A DNA stretch of 64,000 nt from NCBI RefSeq assembly GCF_002803085.1, contig NZ_NNBJ01000005.1:124001-188000 (forward strand), written 5' to 3'. Of the stretch, positions 39,328 to 53,728 are shown one piece after another; the stretch's first letter is position 1, and every line of letters starts with the position of its first letter. This DNA comes from Streptomyces sp. CB01201 (lineage in GTDB: Bacteria; Actinomycetota; Actinomycetes; Streptomycetales; Streptomycetaceae). The position numbers and the translations under genes were made by a program. The notes beneath the pieces are model-generated. The model searched no databases. It was not told where the DNA came from and saw only the letters and a program-made list of their open reading frames with translations.

Positions 39328-39568
39328 GGGAGCGCTCTCGGGGGCGGGGCCGAGGGGTGGCTCCGCCGACGGCGAGGGCTGTTGAGCGGCGGGTGCTGGG
39401 GGGCGTGGAAGGGCTAGATGTGGGGCGGTGAGGTGAGAGCGCTCTTACCTGCCGCGCTCGGAATGGTGTGCTGGGAGCGCTCTCGCGCATCGCGCAAGTT
39501 GGGAGCGCTTTCAGTCGGCCGGTGAGTTGGGAGCGCTCCCCGTTGCTGTGTGAGCCGGGAGCGCTCTC
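39328..39568. repeat. Array of six AGCGCT-centred palindromes, four phased at 28 bp
   Basis: 12-bp palindromes start at 39328 (GGGAGCGCTCTC), 39435 (GAGAGCGCTCTT, within a 20-bp near-palindrome from 39431), 39473 (GGGAGCGCTCTC), 39501 (GGGAGCGCTTTC), 39529 (GGGAGCGCTCCC) and 39557 (GGGAGCGCTCTC). The last four are spaced exactly 28 bp. The core matches the CebR/CelR-type LacI-family operator, known as TGGGAGCGCTCCCA. It lies downstream of the dehydratase and more than 350 bp before the streptogrisin-like gene. Confidence 0.85.
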
Positions 39569-39582
39569 CGCTATCCCGTGTA

Positions 39583-50560: not shown

Positions 50561-50574
50561 TGAGAGCGCTCTCA
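50561..50574. repeat. AGCGCT-centred palindrome
   Basis: TGAGAGCGCTCTCA, a perfect 14-bp palindrome in the 309-bp region between the acyl-CoA ligase start and the LysR gene end. The rest of this region shows only the presumed ligase promoter. Confidence 0.7.
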
Positions 50575-50593: not shown

Positions 50594-51469
50594 TCAGCCC
50601 GTCCCGCGCCCCCGGTGCAGCCGGTCGCCGCCCGCCAGGATCGCCGAGGCCAGCGCGCCCGCGGCCTCCTGCGCGGCCGAGCCCCTCCGATTGTGCAGCA
50701 GGACGAAGTCGACGCCGCCGAGGTCCGGCAGACCCGCCCGGGGCGGCAGCGGGTCGAGGCCGGGCGGGATCAGGCCACGGGTGTGGGCCATCACGCCGAG
50801 GCCGGCCCGGGCCGCCGCGATCAGACCGCTGAGGCTGCCGCTCGTACAGGCGATGCGCCAGGAGCGACCGTGCTCCTCCAGGACTTCCAGCGCCCGTGCC
50901 CGGGTGATGCCGGGCGGCGGGAACAGGATCAGCGGTACCGGGCGCTCCGCGTCGAGGCGCAGGCCCGGCGCCCCGATCCAGCACAGCTCGTCCGTCCACA
51001 CCAGTTCGCCGTGGCTGTCGCCGTCCCGCCGCTTGGCGAGCACGAGGTCGAGGCGGCCCGCTTCCAGCCGCCGGTGCAGGGTGCCGGACAGTTCGACCGT
51101 CAGCTCCAGATCGACCTCGGGGTGGTCGCGACGGAAGGACTGGAGGATCTCCGGCAGCCGGGTCAGGACGAAGTCCTCGGAGGCGCCGAACCGCAGCCGG
51201 CCGCGCAGCCGCGTCCCGGTGAAGTAGTTGGCGGCCCGTTCGTGCGCGGCCAGGATCGTCCGGGCGAAGCCCAGCATCGCCTCGCCGTCCTCCGTCAGCC
51301 GCACGCTGTGCGTGTCGCGGCTGAAGAGGAGCCGCCCGGCAGCGTCCTCCAGGCGGCGCACATGCTGGCTCACCGTCGACTGCCGCAGCCCGAGCCGCTG
51401 TGCGGCCTGCGTGAAGTTCAAGGTCTGCGCGACGGCGAGGAACGTCCGCAGCTGGGTGGCGTCGTACAT
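50594..51469 (-). CDS. LysR-family transcriptional regulator
   Basis: A 291-aa regulator. The N-terminal winged helix is LRTFLAVAQTLNFTQAAQRL and GLRQSTVSQHVRRLEDAAGR. The substrate-binding domain starts near GRLRFGASEDFVLTRLPEIL, with DLVLAKRRDGDSHGELVWTD. Divergent from the sodium-symporter-family gene. The 279 bp between them hold a 28-bp tandem repeat. LysR proteins usually control the divergent gene. GGAGGG lies unusually close (1 nt) to the ATG. Confidence 0.9.
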   Translation of the reverse strand: MYDATQLRTFLAVAQTLNFTQAAQRLGLRQSTVSQHVRRLEDAAGRLLFSRDTHSVRLTEDGEAMLGFARTILAAHERAANYFTGTRLRGRLRFGASEDFVLTRLPEILQSFRRDHPEVDLELTVELSGTLHRRLEAGRLDLVLAKRRDGDSHGELVWTDELCWIGAPGLRLDAERPVPLILFPPPGITRARALEVLEEHGRSWRIACTSGSLSGLIAAARAGLGVMAHTRGLIPPGLDPLPPRAGLPDLGGVDFVLLHNRRGSAAQEAAGALASAILAGGDRLHRGRGTG

Positions 51470-51617
51470 CCCTCCACGCTAGCGCTGCCCATCGTGGAAC
51501 GTGATGACAGTGAGAGTGGTGTACGGGATTCCCGATAGGAGGGGCCGGGAGGACCATGGAGACGGCACGCGTACGTACATGGGGAGCCGACGCCGACCGA
51601 GCTCGTAGACGCGCCCC

Positions 51618-51745
51618 GAGCACGTAAGCAACGCATAGACATCCCGAGCAGGTAAGCAACGCGCGCACACCCTGAGCACGTAAGCAACACCCAGACACCC
51701 CGAGCACGTAAGCAACATGCAGACATCCCGAGCACGTAAGTGGAG
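51618..51745. repeat. 28-bp tandem repeat array upstream of the symporter gene
   Basis: Units start at 51618, 51646, 51674, 51702 and 51730, exactly 28 bp apart. Each begins GAGCACGTAAGCAAC (GAGCAGGTAAG in the second) and ends GACAYCCC or similar. The fifth unit is cut short as it runs into the ribosome site GTGGAG and ATG of the symporter gene. The sequence is unrelated to the other 28-bp array at 39471-39582. Confidence 0.95.
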
Positions 51746-51748
51746 CAC

Positions 51749-52804
51749 ATGAGCCGCCGCCGCACCCCGAAGCTGCCTTCCTGGCTGCCGGTCGATCCGT
51801 ACATCCTGGCGCTGCTCGGCACGGTGGGGCTCGCTGCCGTGCTGCCCGCGTCCGGGGCGGCTGCCCCGGTGGCCAGTGGTGCCTCGACCGGAGCCGTCGC
51901 GCTGCTCTTCTTCCTCTACGGCGCCCGGCTCTCGACCCGCGAGGCGATGGACGGCGTACGCCACTGGCGGCTCCACATCACCGTACTGGCCTGCACGTTC
52001 ATGGCGTTCCCCCTGCTCGGCCTGGCGGCCAGGGGACTCGTTCCGTTCGTCCTGACGCCGGACCTCTACAACGGTCTGCTCTTCCTGTGTCTGGTGCCGT
52101 CCACGATCCAGTCGTCGATCGCGTTCACCTCGATCGCCCGTGGCAATGTGCCCGCCGCGATCTGTGCGGGCTCCTTCTCCAGCATCGCCGGAATCGTGGT
52201 CACACCGCTGCTCGCGGCCGGCCTGCTCGGCAACAGCGGGGGCGGCCTCTCGGCGGACTCGCTCCTGAAGATCGTGCTGCAACTGCTCGTGCCGTTCCTG
52301 GCCGGCCAGTTCCTGCGACGCTGGGTCGGCGGGTTCCTCGTCCGGCACAAGAAGGTGCTCGGGTACGTGGACCGGGGCTCGATCCTGCTTGTCGTGTACA
52401 GCGCGTTCAGCGAGGGCATGGTGCGCGGCATCTGGCACCAGGTGAGCGTGGTCAGGCTCGGCGCACTGCTCTGTGTGGAGGCCGTCCTGCTGGCCGCGAT
52501 GCTCGCACTGACCTGGTACGGGGCGAAGCGGCTCGGGTTCGACCGGGGCGACCGGATCGCGATCCAGTTCGCCGGGTCGAAGAAGAGCCTGGCCGCCGGA
52601 CTCCCCATGGCCAGCGTCCTGTTCGGCGCCCAGGCCTCGCTCGCGGTGCTGCCGCTGATGCTGTTCCACCAGATGCAGCTGATGGTCTGCGCGGTGATCG
52701 CCAAGCGCCGCGCCCGCGACCCGCTGCCTGAGCCGCGGCCCGCGGAGGCGGACCCGGCTCCCGCCGGGCAGGGCAGCGGCTCGGGCGTACGGGCGGGCAG
52801 CTAG
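51749..52804 (+). CDS. Bile-acid:sodium symporter family transporter
   Basis: A 351-aa membrane protein of the BASS family (SBF-like DUF4137 branch). Ten hydrophobic segments are visible, with PASGAAAPVASGASTGAVAL, FLVPSTIQSSIAFTSIARGN-like LVPSTIQSSIAFTSIARGNV, and FAGSKKSLAAGLPMASVLFG at the crossed helices that bind sodium. The substrate is unknown; relatives carry organic acids. ATG 51749 is the start, with GTGGAG just before it in the last repeat unit. A short disordered Pro/Ala/Gly tail ends the protein. Confidence 0.87.
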   Translation: MSRRRTPKLPSWLPVDPYILALLGTVGLAAVLPASGAAAPVASGASTGAVALLFFLYGARLSTREAMDGVRHWRLHITVLACTFMAFPLLGLAARGLVPFVLTPDLYNGLLFLCLVPSTIQSSIAFTSIARGNVPAAICAGSFSSIAGIVVTPLLAAGLLGNSGGGLSADSLLKIVLQLLVPFLAGQFLRRWVGGFLVRHKKVLGYVDRGSILLVVYSAFSEGMVRGIWHQVSVVRLGALLCVEAVLLAAMLALTWYGAKRLGFDRGDRIAIQFAGSKKSLAAGLPMASVLFGAQASLAVLPLMLFHQMQLMVCAVIAKRRARDPLPEPRPAEADPAPAGQGSGSGVRAGS

Positions 52805-53436
52805 GGAACGTCCGTGAGGGCGGGCCGGCCCGGCCGCCGCACCCGGTCCCGGGCCGGCTGCGGCACCTCGTCCCGGGTCAGGTGCCCCACTTGATCCCGG
52901 GTCAGCCGCCACACCTGGTCCATGCCGGTCTCGGCCGGGGCGAGGGCCTCCTTGGGGCGGCGCTCGTACGCGGTGAAGCCGAGCCGGGCGGGCACGGCCG
53001 CGCTCGGCAGGTTGGCGGCGTCGTGCACGATCTCGACGACATCGACCCCGAGCAGCCGGAAGGCCAGCTCCGTCAGTGTCCGCGTGGTGCGGGTGGCCAG
53101 TCCGCGGCCGGTTGCGGACGGATGCAGCCAGTACCCGATCTCGCGCAGACCGTCCTGGTTCTCATCACGCCGGAACAGCCCGCACATCCCGACGATGGCA
53201 CCGTCGAGGGTGATCGCGTAGGCGTAGGCCGCACCGGTCGCCCACAGTTCGGTGCGCTTGGTCAGGAACTGGGCGGTTCGGTCCCGGCTGTGTTCGGACA
53301 CCCAGGGCATCCAGGGGCGCAGGTGTTCCAGCGACTCATCGATGACGCGAAACAGCTCCGCGAGGTCCGCCTCACCGGCGAACGCGCGCAGCGCGAGCGT
53401 GTCGTCCAGGCTGATGATCCGAGGTGGTGGCTCCAT
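52801..53436 (-). CDS. GNAT-family N-acetyltransferase
   Basis: A 211-aa acetyltransferase. DESLEHLRPWMPWVSEHSRD is typical of RimJ/RimL-like enzymes. EIGYWLHPSATGRGLATRTT is the acetyl-CoA loop and HDAANLPSAAVPARLGFTAY the C-terminal motif with Asn-Ser. The last 35 residues (LTRDQVGHLTRDEVPQPARD) are a repetitive extension. Its stop overlaps the convergent symporter stop by 4 bp. Confidence 0.87.
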   Translation of the reverse strand: MEPPPRIISLDDTLALRAFAGEADLAELFRVIDESLEHLRPWMPWVSEHSRDRTAQFLTKRTELWATGAAYAYAITLDGAIVGMCGLFRRDENQDGLREIGYWLHPSATGRGLATRTTRTLTELAFRLLGVDVVEIVHDAANLPSAAVPARLGFTAYERRPKEALAPAETGMDQVWRLTRDQVGHLTRDEVPQPARDRVRRPGRPALTDVP

Positions 53437-53507
53437 GCGGTGATGATCTTACGAAGGGGCGCTCGGAGGCAATGGGATTCAACGGCTCCAGGCCTCCGCC
53501 TCCGATC

Positions 53508-53590
53508 CCGTGTCCCGTGTCCTGTGCCCTGTGCCCTGTGCCCTGTGCCCCGGGCCCTGTGCCCCGGGCCCCGGGCCCGTGCCCTCGGGC
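53508..53590. repeat. 7-bp tandem repeat
   Basis: CCTGTGC repeated at 53521, 53528, 53535 and 53542 with degenerate copies on both sides and CCCGGGCC interruptions, in the 292-bp region between divergent genes. No gene or other signal was seen in this region. Confidence 0.8.
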
Positions 53591-53728
53591 CGCTGCCCCC
53601 CCGGCCCCTGGGTTTCCCTCCCGGGGCGGTCCGCCCCGGGCCCTCGTCCTCCCCGTTCGCCGTGCGGGCATGGCCAGAACAGGTCCCCGGTCTCTGGTGT
53701 GGATCATCGAGGCCGGTACGGTGCCGCC

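Follow-up and report, generated by a model that had tools for sequence, protein, structure and literature searches.

The window analysed here is a stretch of 64,000 nucleotides from Streptomyces sp. CB01201 (contig NZ_NNBJ01000005.1, positions 124,001 to 188,000 of the forward strand), and all coordinates below refer to it. At the locus, a gene coding for a LysR-type regulator (HTH_1 and LysR_substrate domains; Pfam PF00126, 3.5e-20, and PF03466, 4.8e-30) is divergent from a gene coding for an SBF-like (bile-acid-symporter-like) transporter (PF13593, 1.6e-94), and the 279-bp intergenic region between them contains a 28-bp tandem array. Since the transporter scored far under the cut-offs of NCBIfam PanS (32.2 bits, cut-off 400) and of the NCBIfam BASS subfamily (19.5 bits, cut-off 326.3), no substrate is named for it. 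The features of the locus are given below; conservation is counted in 79 sequences, which are the window and 78 relatives from the best 80 loci among the matches listed.

50594..51469, minus strand: LysR-type regulator gene, divergent from the transporter gene
51491..51505, no strand assigned: dyad ATCGTGGAACGTGAT, predicted LysR recognition site of the T-N11-A type (column conservation in the 79 sequences)
51526..51536, plus strand: GGATTCCCGAT, predicted LysR activation site over the predicted -35 (near-invariant columns)
51529-51534, plus strand: predicted -35 hexamer TTCCCG (in 77/79 sequences)
51552..51557, plus strand: predicted -10 hexamer GACCAT, 17 bp past the -35 (NANNAT form)
51564..51748, plus strand: predicted 5' leader of the transporter mRNA (placed relative to the -10; start predicted)
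51614..51740, plus strand: 28-bp tandem array (TRF; unit table and shuffles)
51742..51745, plus strand: ribosome site GGAG, with 3 bases between it and the ATG (by reading; in relatives [TC]GGAGC is frequent ahead of the start)
51749..52804, plus strand: SBF-like transporter gene

The first-pass annotation had described four full 28-bp units and a partial fifth that merges into the ribosome site, placed them in the LysR/transporter intergenic region and considered them non-coding. TRF, the unit table and the shuffles bear out this structure, and the placement and the non-coding nature hold as well; the coordinates given there, 51618-51745, have the location right but shift to 51614-51740 according to TRF (period 28, 4.5 copies, score 170). 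The full units start at 51614, 51642, 51670 and 51698, and the fifth consists of 15 bases from 51726, followed by TGGAGCAC and the ATG at 51749, so that 8 bp separate the end of the array from the transporter start codon. Pairwise identity among the four full units is 21-25 of 28 positions. TRF rows are frequent in the window (64, counting overlapping periods). In the 279-bp intergenic region the period-28 match score reaches 58, whereas 200 dinucleotide shuffles of that region never exceed 12.5 over periods 5-79; the head-to-tail copies exceed chance, and the array is an intergenic tandem repeat, i.e. a minisatellite.

In the four full units, 15 adjacent bases form a core with 1 variable column, and among the remaining 13 columns 8 vary and 5 are invariant. 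The permutation p was ∼0.04 for a stretch allowing one variable column at most and 0.18 for the longest fully invariant stretch, the patterns being in both cases defined post hoc. Such clustering of the variable columns could reflect selection on the core. A CRISPR array was rejected, as the whole period is 28, the 13 non-core columns are alike across units and there are no unique spacers. A mobile origin was also rejected, since blastn returned no match at E up to 0.01 either from plasmids or from phages. We noted by eye that CCGAGCTCGTAGACGCG (51597-51613), which adjoins the array on its 5' side, may be an extra unit lacking 11 bases.

Two short frames were considered and discarded. A leader peptide from the ATG at 51556, after GGAGGACC, with its stop (TAA, 51625) inside the first unit (found by eye), would start on an ATG that overlaps the end of the -10-like hexamer. 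In L009, L010, L011 and L014 this ATG is replaced by ATC while the -10 pattern is intact, which argues against the peptide. The frame from the ATG at 51717 to a TGA overlapping the transporter start was set aside as chance; its ATG lies in unit 4 only, and no ribosome site was seen by eye before it.

Orthologous loci were taken as the best 80 among the matches listed, 79 of them titled Streptomyces and 1 Actinobacteria bacterium. The neighbouring LysR gene was found in 78, and the two loci without a LysR match (L045 and L058) were dropped. None of these 78 orthologous regions carries the array, the 15-base core at up to 2 mismatches or a period-28 score above 6.5; at 3 mismatches the core appears as single copies in L054, L069 and L082. 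The exact pattern of two linked cores was absent from 391 other Streptomyces genomes, the sole match among the 392 being the window's own, and a different second pattern, searched in 346 genomes that were apparently already among those covered, again matched only the window's own genome. Moreover, a DNA search covered 100 genomes; apart from that of the window, 46 matched parts of 51470-51800, and positions 51571-51737 were covered by no listed match except the window's own. Each species is represented by one genome in the collections, and very near genomes were possibly left out, so that the term lineage-specific holds against other species and not against sister strains. Among the papers listed on tandem repeats in Streptomyces and on variable tandem repeats in bacteria, none names the array in its title or in the opening part of its abstract.

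The closest relatives among the matches listed are S. violascens (L009) and Streptomyces sp. WM6378 (L010), with 95.9% and 95.5% identity in the LysR-type regulator and 90% and 93% in the transporter, respectively. Up to the ATG, their intergenic regions come to 151 and 152 bp: the ungapped anchor gives 148 and 149, to which the 3 bases CAC are added. These lengths fall 127-128 bp below the 279 bp of the window, a difference that corresponds to the length of the array. Both align on either side of the array, and at the array end they read GTAAGTGGAGCAC and GTGAGTGGAGCAC, respectively; TGGAGCACATG is common to five aligned sequences. Within the genome of the window itself, the core with 0-1 mismatch occurs at 4 places, all within the array. 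Membership in a dispersed repeat family of the MIRU-like kind, with related units at many places of a genome, was rejected: outside the array the core occurs, with 2 mismatches, at only 7 scattered places, compared with 2 for a reversed control pattern.

What the relatives do share lies upstream of the array. Across the 79 sequences, the block from ATCGCG-N3-CGTGAT through GGATTCCCGAT is strongly conserved, with many invariant columns. At least 5 of the 7 pairs of the dyad are kept in 64/79 sequences, against ∼2.5% of all 15-mers in the same regions, and a NANNAT hexamer stands exactly 17 bp past the -35 in 77/79 (the exceptions are L055 and L068). Matrices built from the 78 relatives score 24.3 at the 51491 dyad and 22.2 at the 51526 element. 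From the -35/-10 reading, a transcript start near 51564 is predicted, and the centre of the dyad would then stand ∼66 bp before it. In LysR-type promoters as described in PMC8407307, recognition often takes place near -65, and the activation site is at -35 and -10; the upstream block resembles this layout, with a putative recognition dyad at about -66 and a second element over the -35, its operator sites being predicted ones, and the array stands outside it.

The predicted -35 and -10 hexamers fit poorly to the consensus reported for Streptomyces in two studies, TANNNT and NTGACC (PMC4895711) and TANNNT and TGAC (PMC6742748). An alternative -35, the conserved TGACAG at 51505-51510, is nearer to TGAC than TTCCCG is, and was rejected because no TANNNT was seen by eye 16-18 bp further on; a start driven by it would still leave the array downstream. 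Transcription of the transporter gene would be set by the conserved LysR-type promoter, which the array does not touch. Because the predicted start precedes the array, the latter should lie within the 5' leader.

As a separate observation, the first 21 nt after the -10 may form a hairpin of the type GGGNNN-loop-NNNCCC near the predicted start (for instance in L084, L074 and L017). A perfect 6-bp stem occurs in 22/79 sequences (shuffle mean 5.3, maximum 12), and in one fixed register 12/77 are fully paired, with differing stem sequences, against a shuffle maximum of 7; the window is absent from these 12. Overall pairing in this register, 0.584, falls inside the shuffle range (mean 0.550, maximum 0.591), and the mean folding z of the region is near zero.

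The predicted leader of the window measures 184-185 nt, against a median of 50 nt in the 79 sequences (approximate to a few nt; range 5 to 210, with only two, of 190 and 210 nt, longer than that of the window). Leader and intergenic lengths of the relatives depend on an ungapped transporter anchor and can carry an error of a few bases, and a larger one if the protein has an earlier start, as for L077 and L083. For S. coelicolor, a median leader length of 44 nt is reported, with 15.3% of the leaders longer than 150 nt (PMC4895711); by these statistics the leader of the window is long for the transporter gene and not exceptional for the genus.

We also surveyed tandem signals in the leaders of at least 35 nt (69 of the 79; the 10 shorter ones were dropped), using mononucleotide shuffles of each leader. 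A signal at p ≤ 0.01 was found in 14/69 leaders, or 13/68 without the window, and the repeats vary in both period and sequence; among coding stretches matched in length, 3/69 gave a signal. The 3' flanks, taken after each of the two stop codons, may include coding sequence of the next genes and gave 5/67 and 7/67 at this threshold, and the excess in the leaders without the window is not significant (Fisher 0.07 and 0.23). At p ≤ 0.05 the corresponding values are 23/68 in leaders against 9/67 and 10/67, and the difference is significant (Fisher 0.008 and 0.016). The idea of the transporter leader as a significant repeat hot spot is therefore partly supported, and the survey points weakly to a leader that tolerates repeats.

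The RNA of the array has little predicted structure. It folds less well than 198/200 shuffles (z +2.25), and for the leader together with the gene start 198/200 shuffles fold at least as well (z +2.21); the opposite strand of the array showed nothing notable (z +1.04, 164/200 shuffles). We rejected a structured RNA or an attenuator formed by the array, since the RNA is less structured than its shuffles and an Rfam covariance-model search of 51400-51900 found nothing at E up to 1. In 47 leaders, the final 40 nt are likewise mildly less structured than mononucleotide shuffles (mean z +0.78; z ≥ 1.5 in 12/47). In the folding model, the cost of opening the GGAG goes from 3.96 kcal/mol without any full unit to 3.83 (one unit), 3.80 (four) and 3.79 (eight); from the GGAG through the ATG the cost is 4.69 with zero full units, 4.28 with one, 4.23 with four and 4.26 with eight. 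Shuffling the four full units brings the mean GGAG cost to 4.50 (sd 0.97), and 28/200 shuffles equal or beat the real array, which is thus not unusually good in this respect. The median GGAG cost in relatives is 3.5 (n = 75, from the best 80 loci). By this model, the array would keep the ribosome site about as open as it is in relatives, with no tuning by copy number.

With some confidence, we favour the reading of the array as a lineage-specific minisatellite that is transcribed as part of the 5' leader and serves mostly as a near-neutral spacer, with the promoter upstream of it. The array unit resembles what lies next to the ribosome site. The GTAAG in front of TGGAGCAC probably predates the expansion, which points to a repeat seed next to the ribosome site, with the additional copies upstream of it. 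The starting point would have been a sequence like that immediately upstream of the ribosome site, tandemly duplicated, presumably by replication slippage or unequal recombination, up to 4.5 copies, which then would have diverged. The expansion would have stretched the leader from ∼50 to ∼185 nt with weakly structured RNA while leaving the native ribosome site in place. Such an array would probably be close to neutral; if it affects translation or mRNA stability, it would do so mildly, as a spacer. Like bacterial intergenic minisatellites and VNTR loci, the array consists of head-to-tail imperfect units of tens of bases that related species do not share; copy-number polymorphism among strains is the defining property of a VNTR, whereas the array is known from one genome.

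Copy-number variation was the other proposal of the first-pass annotation. It is unlikely, although it survives better than the other alternatives, that the array acts as a copy-number switch in which gains and losses of units by slippage change the leader length and tune expression of the transporter. Such a switch could plausibly act on imperfect 28-bp tandem repeats that separate a promoter from a start codon, and changes in tandem copies upstream of genes have been reported as phase-variable in M. tuberculosis (PMC12817950). The repeats described there (dop, cysG and lpdA) also lie close upstream of actinobacterial coding sequences; however, their unit of 54-58 bp is described as promoter sequence, whereas the unit found here falls in the predicted leader, with the predicted promoter outside the repeat. 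The differences between full units, at 3 to 7 of 28 positions, suggest an old array with slow turnover, and the modelled cost of opening the GGAG is flat from one to eight units.

We consider it improbable that the 15-base core is a repeated binding site, in DNA or RNA, for some factor acting on the transporter leader. The core is nearly invariant across units while the linkers vary, and the units follow one another at a regular spacing of 28; however, the core has no obvious dyad by eye, it is missing at up to 2 mismatches from all orthologous regions compared, and its scarcity elsewhere in the genome (7 places, all with 2 mismatches, against 2 for the reversed control) leaves no evident regulon. 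A broader proposal, that the leader is a site of recurrent, independent repeat expansion across Streptomyces, where the copies tune translation or mRNA lifetime through an unstructured leader and the core is under selection, seems to us improbable to the same degree. Finally, the first-pass annotation had suggested regulator binding to the array; that each unit binds the divergent LysR protein is very hard to sustain: the array is placed between the LysR gene and its likely target and has T-N11-A at 5 places in 51614-51748, a motif too weak to count, but it shows no operator similarity (best matrix scores of -10.7 and -6.5 at 51614 or later), it lies downstream of the predicted start, and none of the relatives in which the site and promoter at 51491-51557 are conserved has the array.

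By itself the minisatellite matters little; it offers a clean case in which the comparison of relatives parts a conserved promoter from a showy repeat. The more useful lead is the conserved LysR-type promoter upstream of an SBF-like transporter in Streptomyces. Should it be true that leader repeats tune expression, they would give this industrially used genus an evolvable dial.

Other repeated stretches were noted in the window. A period-28 stretch at 39497-39570 contains repeated GGGAGCGCT palindromes, which may resemble LacI-family operators, and is probably the 28-bp palindrome array with which the first-pass annotation had compared the leader array, leaving the choice between coincidence and a common spacing rule. 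Coincidence looks right, because the two sequences are unrelated and the leader array lies in a predicted transcript. A palindrome similar to the 39497-39570 motif, GAGAGCGCTCTC, is present at 50562-50573 between an AMP-binding enzyme gene and the LysR gene. The stretch 53507-53591 is repeat-rich, with TRF periods of 7, 14 and 21, and lies a short way upstream of where a minus-strand GNAT acetyltransferase gene (52801-53436) starts.
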